This document shows positions 7,275-49,734 of a stretch of 64,000 nucleotides of DNA, piece after piece. Both the position numbers and the translations under genes were made by a program. This stretch comes from Thermoproteus sp. GTDB taxonomy: Archaea; Thermoproteota; Thermoprotei; Thermoproteales; Thermoproteaceae. Each line of letters starts with the position of its first letter. The first letter of the stretch is position 1. The DNA lies in the NCBI GenBank assembly GCA_038893495.1, contig JAWARJ010000001.1, positions 558,001 through 622,000 of the forward strand, in the 5' to 3' direction. The notes below the pieces were generated by a model. That model saw nothing but the letters and a program-made list of their open reading frames with translations, made no database searches and was not told the DNA's origin.

Positions 7275-7915
7275 TTCTATAAATCTTAGATCTCTGAGAA
7301 AAGATAAATTTTCTGATACATGGCACTAGTAGACGCGGCACATGTGCGCCGAGTAGCTTCGGGGACGGACTGCTAAGTGGCGTATGCCCCGGCGCAGATC
7401 GCGGCGTCTCGCGTCAACTTCCGTGGTCAAGAAGCTACACAGGGGGAGTTTCAGGAAAAGGCGGTGTTGCTACGGTCGCCGAGGCCGACGTGGTATTCGC
7501 TGGGTGACATGGCCGCAAAGAGGCAGGGGGAGCTGGACTTTATAATCATCGGCGCTAAGTACAAGGGCCTTCCTCTGCGGAGTGAGCTTAGACGATGTGG
7601 GGGGAGTTCGCGACGCTCGCCGACGCCGCCGTCGGCAAGCACGACGAATAGACGGCGGAGTGCTGAGGCGAGCCGTTTTGATGCCCGCACTGACGCGAAA
7701 TGTGGAGAGTTACAGGACCACGGGGCGCCGCATCGCGCCGTTATGGCTACGTCGGCTAAACGCGCCACCCTCGGAAGGTCAGGCATCCAACACATCGCAT
7801 CCCGCATGGCACTGGAGGGTAAGACGGGCCCGCCGGGTCTCTGCTACGGTCGTTATGCAAGCGCAACTCACGAGGCGAGGCCGTCCCATATCTGTCAACC
7901 GCAAGCGTTGGGCGG
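7275..7915. other. Interval between vapB and cbiG: decayed DNA with a nucleotidyltransferase remnant
   Basis: About 640 bp. A long plus-strand frame across it and the 3' part of cbiG is not credible as one protein (low-complexity Arg/Ser/Pro composition, and it reads antisense to cbiG). The only recognisable piece is a degraded nucleotidyltransferase segment near 7461-7590, listed separately. The rest shows no gene. Confidence 0.4.
7461..7590 (+). pseudogene. Remnant of a minimal nucleotidyltransferase (MNT/KNTase)
   Basis: The plus-strand frame from about 7461 reads AVLLRSPRPTWYSLGD and then GELDFIIIGAKYKGLPLRSE. This aligns by eye with the nucleotidyltransferase core, glycine-serine-arginine motif followed by the DxD-type strand, as in VLFGSRARGTWHALSDWD of the intact gene at 34.7 kb. 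The GSRARG motif is destroyed (LRSPRP), extra residues separate it from the LDF strand, and the frame dissolves after 7590. I infer a dead antitoxin gene; no HEPN partner remains. Evidence is short, so confidence is modest. Confidence 0.4.
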
Positions 7916-8857
7916 TTATGCCTTCGCCGCCACGGCCACTGTCACCTTGCCCCCGAAGGCCCTCTTCCTATACACGAGTTTGGCCCCGGGCCCCGCCGCC
8001 GCTAACGCAGACGCCTCAGCCACATTGGCCACGCCCTTGGCCTCAAGCGCCTTTTTGCTGGGCGGCGAGAGGCATATATCCTCGGCCAGCTGTTCTGGGC
8101 TCAGTTTTACTGGTTTCGCGCCTAAGATGCGCGCCACTGCGTACACCTCATCTCTTATGGACGCTACGGCTTCGACGCCCTTTGCGCCTATCTGCCTCAA
8201 AGTAGCGGCTATAGCCTCGGCTATCTCCTCAGGCGTGGCTCTCGAAGTGGCGCCGAAGCCGGCATAGAGTCTCAACGGCCTACAACACATAGGCCCCTCG
8301 CAACCCACTCTGATCGTGACCTCGCAACCGCTCCCGATCCTATAGCCCGTAAAGTTGAAGGGCAAATCGGCGTCTATACACACCTCCCCGCCCGAGAGCA
8401 ACCTCCTATAGACCTCAAGTCTGTCCTCCTCAGACAGCTCGCACAGGAGAGCTCTCTCCACGTCCTCAACTGGGGCGAACCCAGCGGCCTCCGCCGCCGT
8501 AGTCTCCACGACGACTCCACCTACGAGCTCTGCGAGTTCACGCGCCAGCTCGTTGGCGCCTCTGTGCATGCCGACCAGCGGTATAAAGTAGCGCAGATCG
8601 TGGCTGGCCGCCACTACGGGCGGGTCCAGCTCCTTGTCCTTAAGTCTTCTGCACAACGCCCTGACGGTGCCGCCGATGGCCATGATAAATACATAGGCGT
8701 CGTAACAACCCCACGCTGAGTCCAACTCCTTGTAGCCGAAAAGCACAGACGGGACGGCGCCCTTTAAGCTCGACGAGAGCCTCTCGGCAGCCTTCCTGCC
8801 GGCCTCCGAGGCGTATACAACCGCCAGGCCCCTCCACAAGAGCTCAAGGCGCCTCAC
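7916..8857 (-). CDS. cbiG: Cobalt-precorrin-5A hydrolase
   Basis: A 313-residue CbiG. The N-terminal domain carries VFIMAIGGTVRAL, VAASHDLRYFIPLVGMHRGANELA (with the CbiG-typical LVGxHRGANxLA) and a central linker. The C-terminal domain has LRLYAGFGATSRATPEEI and ends in a Gly-rich tail. CbiG opens the ring-A delta-lactone of cobalt-precorrin-5A and releases acetaldehyde, contracting the macrocycle in the anaerobic corrinoid pathway. It is the second gene of a minus-strand pair, overlapping cbiE by 14 bp. Confidence 0.93.
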   Translation of the reverse strand: MRRLELLWRGLAVVYASEAGRKAAERLSSSLKGAVPSVLFGYKELDSAWGCYDAYVFIMAIGGTVRALCRRLKDKELDPPVVAASHDLRYFIPLVGMHRGANELARELAELVGGVVVETTAAEAAGFAPVEDVERALLCELSEEDRLEVYRRLLSGGEVCIDADLPFNFTGYRIGSGCEVTIRVGCEGPMCCRPLRLYAGFGATSRATPEEIAEAIAATLRQIGAKGVEAVASIRDEVYAVARILGAKPVKLSPEQLAEDICLSPPSKKALEAKGVANVAEASALAAAGPGAKLVYRKRAFGGKVTVAVAAKA

Positions 8858-42940: not shown

Positions 42941-43093
42941 CCATCGACGCGACGGCCCTACCAGGGAGGGCACAAGCCCATCGCGAGCGGCATACCGCCG
43001 TCAGCCCCGGCTCGGGCGTAACGACGAAAAGCCCGCCGGCGCTCCAGGTGGCCGCTTGACGTAATGCTTAAAGCCGGGGCGGGGACTACCTAT

Positions 43094-46696
<3,603 letters not shown>

Positions 46697-46706
<10 letters not shown>

Positions 46707-47533: not shown

Positions 47534-47606
47534 AGGGCTGGCGACATTCCTAGATATAAACCTTTAGGCGCTCGTAAAATTTTTATTGTATAAACTAAGT
47601 GGCCAC

Positions 47607-47828
47607 ATGAGTCGTGAGGCTAGGCGTGGAGTTGATGTCGTCACCGTCCGCGAAGAGCCATCTGTCCTGGGCGACTGCGAGGTGAGGGACTTCGAGACCT
47701 TCTCGTCAATAATCCCGCCGTCTCTACAGTCCGCCGTGCTCGACGCAATTAGGGGCGGAGTGGTTCCCGACGAATTGAAGCCGTTATTAAGGCGATTAAG
47801 GGAGACAGGAGTAATAGTCTGCACATGA
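47607..47828 (+). CDS. Small protein coupled to a methyltransferase-like gene
   Basis: A 73-residue protein: MSREARRGVDVVTVREEP, then DFETFSSIIPPSLQSAVLDA and VPDELKPLLRRLRETGVIVC. It has one central and one C-terminal Cys, a predicted helical second half and no membrane segment. TTTTTATT lies about 24-27 nt before ATG 47607; the longer frame from 47586 overlaps that promoter. It shares an ATGA junction with the methyltransferase-like gene. Family not recognised; it could be a substrate, partner or regulator of the enzyme. Confidence 0.6.
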   Translation: MSREARRGVDVVTVREEPSVLGDCEVRDFETFSSIIPPSLQSAVLDAIRGGVVPDELKPLLRRLRETGVIVCT

Positions 47829-48796
47829 GCTTCATCGACTCCTTCCTCGACGAAATTAACGCCCTTAGGAGTTACGATAGGTTCATCAAGGCTATGGGAG
47901 GGATCGGCGAGGTGAAGAAGGCGCTTTCGTGGAGCACTTGGTACGCCGTAAAGTGGTGGGATGAACTTAAGCACGAACTGGACCTTGACGCCGACAAGTC
48001 GCTTTTCGGTAAGGCCCTCTTCATGTCCCTAAGGACCCGCGGGATAGTAGACGACGACGGAAATATAGTCAAGAGGGTCGAGAGACCGGAGAGACCCACC
48101 AACGCCTATGCGGCCGAGTTCGTGGAGCTACACGAATCCTTTGATGCACTCGGCGCGGTTTCAGTTGCCAGGGGGGCAGTGAACGCAGAGAGGCTACGCC
48201 TGCTCTACTCCGCCATGTTGGCGCAGGGGTGGTACAACGTTATGAGGGACACCTTCCTGGACGTCGTGGAGGTGGAGAAGTACGCCAAGATCGTAGAACC
48301 GCACTGCAAGGAGGGCCTCATGGCGTATTCCGTGTTGAAGAGACACCAGCCCGACAAGTACTTCGCGTACGACCCCGAGCCCGACGACGTGGAGGCCACG
48401 GCTACCCTCCTGGGGGTCACGCCCAACGCGTGCGAGGACAAGATCTGCGTCTTCCAGACCTCCACAATTTGTGAGGGGGCCTCCCGCGAGGCGGCTGCCC
48501 GTTTCGGCGGCCAATACGACGCGGCGCTTTTATTCCACACCCTCTACTGGATGTCAGATCCCCTCTCGGAGCTCACTTGCCTCAAAAGGATCTTAAAACC
48601 AGGCGCGGCTCTCCTAGTGGGGCAACAAGTGGTGGAATCCACGCCGGGTCTTCTAGCCGTAACGGTCACCTTCGGCGCCAAACGCGTCGTTAAGTGGAAA
48701 GACGTAGAGTCTCTACTAGAGGCCGCCGGGTTCAAGCTGGAAAAAAGGTCCGTCAAATATACCCCCTACTACATCGCGATTTGGCGGTCGTCTTAA
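47825..48796 (+). CDS. Methyltransferase-like protein with a degenerate SAM motif
   Basis: A 323-residue protein. The C-terminal third resembles class I methyltransferases: QYDAALLFHTLYWMSDPLSE then LTCLKRILKPGAALLVGQQV and a terminal EAAGFKLEKRSVKYTPYY. The glycine-rich SAM loop (expected near residue 160-170) is not present; instead EPHCKEGLMAYSVLKRHQPD precedes a FAYDPEPDD strand. Residues 1-150 are helical with several Trp (STWYAVKWWDEL) and lack a known domain. It could be an atypical methyltransferase or a non-catalytic derivative. Translationally coupled to the 73-residue protein upstream; 4-bp overlap with the convergent RadA paralogue. Confidence 0.6.
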   Translation: MSFIDSFLDEINALRSYDRFIKAMGGIGEVKKALSWSTWYAVKWWDELKHELDLDADKSLFGKALFMSLRTRGIVDDDGNIVKRVERPERPTNAYAAEFVELHESFDALGAVSVARGAVNAERLRLLYSAMLAQGWYNVMRDTFLDVVEVEKYAKIVEPHCKEGLMAYSVLKRHQPDKYFAYDPEPDDVEATATLLGVTPNACEDKICVFQTSTICEGASREAAARFGGQYDAALLFHTLYWMSDPLSELTCLKRILKPGAALLVGQQVVESTPGLLAVTVTFGAKRVVKWKDVESLLEAAGFKLEKRSVKYTPYYIAIWRSS

Positions 48797-49734
48797 TACA
48801 AGCCGTCGTCGGCTATCCTGTACTGTATCTTCACTTCAGGCGACATGCCGGGGACGTCTAAAGGCCACATGTGGCCTTCGGGCTTCTGCTTCGAAGGCCT
48901 CGCCATCACGAACCTCGCGTTTACGGCATGGGCCAAGACGTTGCCGCCAGCCGGCCTCTTGAGGCCGGAGAGGAACGCCTCGGGTACGTCCATGACCTGA
49001 TTAGTGAAGACTATCAGCGCGTTGAACACTCTAGCGTGTCTCCTAAACCAATCTATAAGGTAATGAAGCCTTTGTTGCCTCTCGGCGAGGCTCTCACGCC
49101 CCACGAACTCGGCCCTATATAGCGCCGTGATGGTGTCCACCACAACAGTCCTCGCGCCTTCCTTTAGGTGTTTAGGCAACTCATATTTGGCGAAGGCCTC
49201 AAGGGCCGAGACGTTGTCGGGGACATAGACGGAAATTCTGTCCAAGACCTGCCCCGACTCCAGCCCGAACCTCTTTGCCATCTTGTCTAGAAGCCCCGCG
49301 TTGAAGGTCCCCTCGGTATCTATATAGACCACATCGCCGAAGTTCTGCGCTATTGATTGGACCGATATCTGGTGGGCCAACATGGACTTGCCAGCGCCGA
49401 ACTCCCCCGCGAATTCGTATATGAAGGCCTCCCTCAAGCCTCCCCACGGCGCCCTCTCGTCGAACTCGGCGACGCCGGTCTTAACCACTTTGTACTGCGC
49501 CTTCAGGAGCTCCGAGGCCTTAACGGCCTTGGGTTGCCTCCCCAAAAGCTCTCTCGCCTTCGCCAACAGCCTCTCTGCGGTAGAGGGCTCTATCCCCGCA
49601 TCTATGAGCTCATCTACAGTGAATTCCAAGAGGTGTTCAGGCGAGACCACGCCGAGCTCCTCCAGCCTCCTCCTAGTCGAAGGCCCTACTTCAAGCCTCT
49701 CGAGCCAGTCCTCTCCCCCCTTCCTTTTAGACAT
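48793..49734 (-). CDS. RecA-family ATPase, RadA paralogue
   Basis: A 313-residue protein: N-terminal helix-hairpin-helix region (LEELGVVSPEHLLEFTVDEL) and a RecA core with Walker A GEFGAGKSM, YIDTEGTFN and Walker B TVVVDTITAL, then IVFTNQV and GGNVLAHAVNARF. It differs from canonical archaeal RadA at several fixed places: Walker A is GAGKS rather than GSGKT, and the segment before it reads APWGGLREAF instead of a glycine-rich GGVET stretch. I therefore call it a RadA paralogue (possibly the aRadC group), acting in homologous recombination or repair. It could still be the only RadA of this organism. Confidence 0.75.
   Translation of the reverse strand: MSKRKGGEDWLERLEVGPSTRRRLEELGVVSPEHLLEFTVDELIDAGIEPSTAERLLAKARELLGRQPKAVKASELLKAQYKVVKTGVAEFDERAPWGGLREAFIYEFAGEFGAGKSMLAHQISVQSIAQNFGDVVYIDTEGTFNAGLLDKMAKRFGLESGQVLDRISVYVPDNVSALEAFAKYELPKHLKEGARTVVVDTITALYRAEFVGRESLAERQQRLHYLIDWFRRHARVFNALIVFTNQVMDVPEAFLSGLKRPAGGNVLAHAVNARFVMARPSKQKPEGHMWPLDVPGMSPEVKIQYRIADDGLY

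Follow-up and report, generated by a model that had tools for sequence, protein, structure and literature searches.

What does a protein of 73 residues do when its gene overlaps that of a 323-residue, methyltransferase-like protein in which the usual SAM loop is hard to recognize? The question arises from the window, our name for the whole stretch of 64,000 nucleotides of Thermoproteus sp. DNA analysed here, in which a sequence-only reading had noticed two such reading frames sharing an ATGA junction and had suggested that they form either a protein-partner or a peptide-modification system. We find that the pair is real and conserved, that its small member has no family name in the libraries searched, and that the arrangement, a methyltransferase with a small partner, is of a kind already known. 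The features that enter into the argument are as follows.

47576..47589, + strand: TATA-like AT-rich stretch, about -31 to -18 relative to the small-gene ATG (from the sequence)
47607..47828, + strand: small-protein gene, 73 aa (ATG at 47607, TGA at 47826-47828)
47676..47678, + strand: codon of Cys24 (DCE motif) of the small protein, conserved in Thermoproteaceae and on a predicted strand
47820..47822, + strand: codon of Cys72 (VCT C-terminus) of the small protein, conserved in Thermoproteaceae and on a predicted strand
47825..47828, + strand: ATGA overlap of methyltransferase start and small-gene stop (from the sequence); the junction is at zero distance in many relatives too
47825..48796, + strand: class I methyltransferase-like gene, 323 aa (ATG at 47825, TAA to 48796)
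47930..47959, + strand: Trp-rich motif WSTWYAVKWW, residues 36-45, in the N-terminal helical domain (from family conservation)
48296..48316, + strand: putatively rewritten motif I (SAM loop) EPHCKEG, residues 158-164, aligned to DAGGGEG of CmoM
48371..48373, + strand: Asp183, end of strand 2, expected from the alignment to be the SAM-ribose-binding acid
48470..48472, + strand: Cys216, which co-occurs with Cys252 (alignment of 45 copies)
48578..48580, + strand: Cys252 (motif ELxC), which co-occurs with Cys216 (alignment of 45 copies)

Layout of the locus and pairing of the genes

Both reading frames and their ATGA junction are confirmed from the sequence, and the TATA box that had been credited to the small gene reappears as a property of its orthologues: in a set of 27 such genes AT content reaches its maximum, 0.77-0.83, between -30 and -18, against a window mean of 0.41. 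A stretch so placed fits a leaderless or short-leader transcript of the small gene. Purifying selection acts on both genes: in six pairs from four Thermoproteus genomes pN/pS is 0.39-0.63 in the small gene against 0.26-0.39 in the methyltransferase gene, with dS high or saturated in several of those pairs. Upstream, at 43064-46706, lie three overlapping genes on the same strand, aldolase-like, sugar-kinase-like and glucoamylase-like by the look of their sequences; downstream, a convergent Rad51-type ATPase gene (48793-49734, - strand) overlaps the methyltransferase stop codon with its own at 48793-48796. An Rfam search of the window gave no match.

A single-sequence search finds the methyltransferase in 19 of 61 relatives and in 16 of 300 genomes from the phylum. 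A profile search at E<=1e-8 over 81 genomes of the class finds it in 22, with no match at that threshold in genus g2 of family f1 or in family f2. The small protein is found by profile A5 (E<=1e-4) in 25 of 398 genomes of the phylum, the tail consisting of ribbon-only matches. We take the two families that carry the pair to be f1, with Thermoproteus and Pyrobaculum, and the Thermofilaceae-like f5. The viral contigs searched held no relative.

Wherever the small protein occurs, a methyltransferase gene is nearly always beside it. The small-protein places counted number 42, being 40 plus two new ones from the phylum-wide A5 search; the count leaves aside the G032:C24 row (E 1.0e-4, internal stops, no second half), rows weaker than 1.8e-4, and the phylum-wide places G231:C103, G059, G052, G330 and G032. 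At 39 of them a same-strand methyltransferase match lies within 400 bases (largest distance 194, many at distance 0). One miss, in G010, is a methyltransferase gene split after its first ~36 profile positions, with the rest ~1.5 kb on and a foreign-looking ORF between; in G263 the methyltransferase begins ~50 bases on and its profile match starts late; at G003:C176 only a C-terminal methyltransferase fragment is nearby. Adding G010 and G263 on inspection to the 39 found by coordinates, a methyltransferase gene adjoins 41 of the 42 places. Far from always occurring alone, the orthologues thus keep this company, which supports the idea of a protein partner. The order of the genes is reversed in G017, methyltransferase first, and the two are still tightly linked. 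The interrupted pair of G010, which is a P. islandicum-like genome, is of the C type (L063:5237-8052), and the inserted ORF is presumably an IS605-type TnpB.

Seen from the other side, 19 of 58 methyltransferase match places in the profile search of the class have no small gene by the same 400-base, same-strand test. These include contig ends, fragments, the split gene of G010 and the late-matching one of G263, together with five Thermoproteus E copies, two Pyrobaculum D-like copies and three Thermofilaceae-like copies. Several methyltransferase copies are decayed, with stops, so those copies are dispensable. Divergence of the small proteins tracks that of the methyltransferase next to each (r 0.84 over 25 pairs, a set made without the Thermofilaceae-like pairs, A_G007, C_G010, C_G012, D_G002, F_G014, F_G015 and others), a value reached by none of 2000 full shuffles and by 1 of 2000 shuffles within genomes.

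The large protein and its altered SAM loop

The likeness to a methyltransferase that had been noticed in the C-terminal part is borne out by a Pfam match to Methyltransf_23 at residues 161-270 (34.2 bits, cut-off 27), and comparison of the family profile with PDB profiles gives matches at 4e-7 to class I enzymes, CmoM among them. The AlphaFold2 (AF2) model is poor (mean pLDDT 47.7, from two sequences). Its residues 153-323, the only part covered by the VIA-align matches, resemble class I folds, with 166 Foldseek matches at E<=0.001 and Z values of up to 9.5 that stand only moderately above background. The rough model has the look of a small-molecule enzyme, and structures of the two-domain O- and N-methyltransferases of the Plu4890, Rv2258c and BchU types are among its best matches. 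These resemble the large protein in size and in the order of a helical N-domain followed by a class I domain; unlike them, the window protein has an N-domain with no sequence family match to theirs, and we know of no enzyme of these types that needs a small ribbon partner.

That N-terminal domain, described in the sequence-only reading as Trp-rich and unassigned, keeps both descriptions: its 150 residues gave no sequence match and no Pfam model, and its motif is near-invariant across the family as WSxWYAxKWW, with W36 in 30/33, W44 in 33/33 and W45 in 31/33 sequences. Matches to TEAD transcription factors, at E 0.068 or worse, were taken as chance.

The same reading held that a glycine-rich SAM loop is lacking. 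Altered it certainly is, since the GxGxG of motif I is not found in the window methyltransferase, but it is not absent: EPHCKEG stands at the expected place, with the last glycine kept and the first two lost. Comparison of the loop across 45 copies (the alignment and tree are without A_G007, C_G010, C_G012 and fragments, and a contig end cuts B_G003) reveals family-specific forms. Only the two Y relatives, deep members of the family that are both paired with a ribbon protein, have the canonical DVGAGIG; six of seven X relatives have a D[VLI]xxRxG loop (e.g., DVxxRIG); the A copies and most C copies have EPxx[KR]EG or close variants, the window family EPxxKEG, the B copies [VAF]PxxKEG-like loops and the E copies xPxxGE, while the D copies vary (EPRMRGG, EAFVKEG). 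Lys or Arg occupies the position of the middle glycine in 32/45 copies; the last loop glycine is kept in 41/45, and an acid, D or E, ends strand 2 in 41/45. In the tree X and Y group together, the window clade has a support of 100/100, and F_G017 is a long branch. It would appear from these alignments that the loop changed from a canonical to a rewritten form. Ribbon partners accompany both of the Y copies and four of the seven X copies, so canonical and rewritten loops alike are found in enzymes that are paired with a ribbon protein.

A loop of this form need not be empty. The adenine-N6 methyltransferase M.TaqI, whose structure has been solved with SAM, has the loop EPACAHG, with the spacing of the window's EPxxKEG, so a loop of the EPxxxxG type can be reconciled with SAM binding. 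Since GxGxG is missing in M.TaqI also, and is therefore not universal, its loss here lowers the case for class I membership without ending it. In other respects M.TaqI differs: that enzyme acts on DNA and has NPPY as motif IV, whereas in the window protein LYWMSDP comes after the corresponding strand.

Two cysteines of the large protein, Cys216 and Cys252, are both present in 35/45 copies and both missing in the other 10/45, the all-or-none pattern expected for a disulfide. Cytosolic disulfides are reported for thermophilic archaea of this kind (PMC3177088).

The small protein and the ribbon of its relatives

By itself the 73-residue protein is nearly silent in searches: no Pfam or NCBIfam family matches it at E<=10, and comparison with solved structures gave nothing credible (best E 0.074). 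Its AF2 model, built from two sequences with a mean pLDDT of 71.7, places three helices between two strands, one at Cys24 and the other at Cys72, and Foldseek found no credible match to this fold (three matches, best E 6.7). In this rough model the two cysteines flank the helical domain and could suit a disulfide.

The relatives are more informative. Small proteins of the Pyrobaculum copies, of the Thermoproteus B copies and of the C, F, X and Y types are ~85-140 aa long and consist of an N-terminal zinc ribbon followed by the helical domain; a decayed-looking F copy in G012 has lost ribbon cysteines. Only the helical domain is present in the window clade, which comprises four Thermoproteus genomes, and in the D copies of Thermoproteus: the ribbon is missing from 4/4 window-clade members and from the three Thermoproteus D members of the A2 alignment, and most other members of A2 and A5 have it. 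The frame upstream of the small-gene ATG in the window extends for only 13 more codons and contains no Cys. Because most relatives have the ribbon and this protein has the helical domain alone, we regard it as a short version of an accessory protein and not as a free-standing peptide, and the notion of a peptide-modification system finds no support, its supposed precursors being for the most part zinc-ribbon proteins. Probably the ancestor of the window protein carried a ribbon that was later lost in this lineage, a direction of change that we infer from the sequences compared.

In Thermoproteaceae the helical domain has DCE at its start and VCT or close variants at its end, with C-terminal residues conserved to the last (VCT/ICT/KCL); the Thermofilaceae-like partners end in LLEVEE-like sequence and have no C-terminal Cys. 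The family ribbon bears a weak likeness to many ribbons in the profile search of solved structures (Rpo12 at E 0.0034, LysW at 0.044), and among the matches listed the ribbon partners fall below the cut-off of every Pfam model. LysW carriers have a C-terminal Glu in an EDWGE tail. Identity with LysW was rejected: the B-type partner scores 13.9 bits against a cut-off of 27, and the window protein has no ribbon and ends in VCT.

A candidate two-subunit methyltransferase

The gene pair looks like an unstudied two-part enzyme with a putative modification activity. We suggest, with a probability of roughly 0.55, that it encodes a two-subunit SAM methyltransferase made of a catalytic and a dedicated accessory subunit, the complex, its SAM binding and its activity all being predictions of the model. 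The large protein would be the catalytic subunit, with its Trp-rich helical N-domain and a class I domain bearing EPxxKEG as its rewritten loop; the small protein would be the accessory subunit, its translation coupled to that of the enzyme on a shared transcript. The helical domain and the C-terminal strand (GVIVCT) are the shared core of the small proteins and so the likely docking part, and the ribbon, as the variable part, is more likely related to the substrate. Docked through that putative surface, the small protein might stabilize the enzyme or complete its substrate or SAM site, by analogy with Trm112. The ancestral accessory subunit would also have had the ribbon, presumably zinc-binding and perhaps used in substrate recognition, before its loss in the window lineage.

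The known precedent is Trm112, a small zinc protein that assists several methyltransferases. As in its holoenzymes (with Trm9, Trm11, Mtq2 and Bud23), a small zinc-binding protein with a helical part would here serve a class I methyltransferase, and the Trm112 C-terminus is described as a strand at the methyltransferase interface (PMC5372719). Trm112, though, serves several enzymes, whereas here each paired enzyme has its own small gene beside it, and the Trm112 zinc knuckle is split over both termini, whereas the ribbon of the pair is contiguous at the N-terminus or absent. Canonical Trm112 is encoded separately in 79 of 81 class genomes, including this one (G000:C1:121778-122044). That the small protein is itself a Trm112 was rejected: hhalign against four Trm112 sequences gave a probability of 5.7% over 7 columns. 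PF03966 matched neither the window small protein (E<=10) nor the B-, A- and X-type partners, and none of the best 25 of 38 C-type rows. If the two-subunit reading is right, the pair is a second arrangement, unrelated to Trm112, with one partner per enzyme; a family with canonical and rewritten loops side by side would allow one to ask directly how a methyltransferase comes to depend on a partner and what part of the SAM loop it can do without. A more far-reaching proposal, which we consider unlikely, is that these are independently evolved archaeal two-subunit methyltransferases in which the ribbon partner allowed the loop to be rewritten, Lys or Arg replacing the middle glycine, with a pocket completed by the partner or adapted to a changed donor such as carboxylated SAM, and that the window lineage then shed the ribbon.

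Other explanations would leave the small protein or the large one a different role. The large protein could have degenerated, ceased to methylate and taken on a binding or regulatory role together with the small protein. Among the 45 copies, all A, B and C members and most D members have other residues in place of the first two glycines of GxGxG, as such decay might predict, and stops occur in several copies of the wider family; but the strand-2 acid and the last glycine are widely retained, motif I holds a strong family-specific pattern instead of drifting, and M.TaqI has its EPACAHG at identical spacing, so we think degeneracy rather unlikely. Less plausible still is a small protein that serves as substrate or carrier, LysW-like or precursor-like, and is modified by the methyltransferase at, for example, the conserved C-terminal Cys. 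The Thermoproteaceae C-termini, conserved to their last residues, and the presence of LysW among the weak ribbon matches would agree with this, but the Thermofilaceae-like ends have no Cys to modify, conservation spans the helical domain and not the tail alone, the window copy has no ribbon, and both cysteines sit on strands at the ends of that domain, where they may instead pair. It seems similarly improbable that the genes are merely co-transcribed, the small ribbon protein being a DNA- or RNA-binding regulator that never joins the enzyme. Its generic ribbon matches (Rpo12, Elf1, S27e, Brz) would be in keeping with such a regulator, but the pairing persists in more than one family, among several paralogues and whichever gene comes first, the window clade retains precisely the domain that is not a ribbon, and the two proteins diverge together.

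The two-subunit enzyme that we favor would have a substrate, and the neighbourhoods give clues to it that point in different directions: translation and tRNA genes for the B locus, a pilin and secretion-ATPase locus for two Thermofilaceae-like pairs, and a model that looks like a small-molecule enzyme. This genome has four methyltransferase paralogues, three of them behind a small-protein gene, and some hyperthermophiles have up to four per genome; neighbours differ from paralogue to paralogue. The Pyrobaculum A and Thermoproteus B copies share an ABCE1-type ATPase gene and a UPF0126-type gene as neighbours (gene lists of G010 and G000, with Pfam for the Thermoproteus side). It is the ribbon-bearing B copy that occupies this shared place, so the window copy probably arose as a duplicate and is the derived one. 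The B locus is near ABCE1, TYW3 and a 2'-5' RNA ligase-like gene.

PADLOC anti-phage defence models matched neither window protein; its mad2 model matched the B (6.7e-4) and Y (4e-10) relatives, in the methyltransferase region only. Literature searches on archaeal methyltransferases with a zinc ribbon or small protein in Pyrobaculum, Thermoproteus and Thermoproteaceae listed no match that by its title concerned the pair.

Several loci of the wider family have features of their own. Downstream of the ribbon-bearing B-type pair of this genome (L051:8809-10154; G000:C1:1123548-1124839) come convergent UbiE-type methyltransferase and TYW3 genes. In 5/5 Thermoproteus E-type copies examined, a thioredoxin-like gene (a weak likeness, with a CRTC motif) lies directly upstream in place of the ribbon protein; at the E-type locus of this genome (L053:7302-7631 and 7661-8509, near G000:C1:388700) the Thioredoxin_3 match is 22.2 bits, below the cut-off of 24.8. 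Two Thermofilaceae-like pairs (L135/L159 and L137/L161; G297:C11 and G060:C2) are found amid pilin-like genes, T2SSE (the type II/IV secretion ATPase) and a ParA-like ATPase, the pilins and ParA being recognized mostly by the look of their sequences, with Pfam matches below cut-off. In G263:C5 (L158:2038-4099) the ribbon-methyltransferase pair is followed by a Ras-type GTPase, a 261-aa protein that starts with CPDCG and an overlapping second methyltransferase, with a roadblock protein farther downstream.
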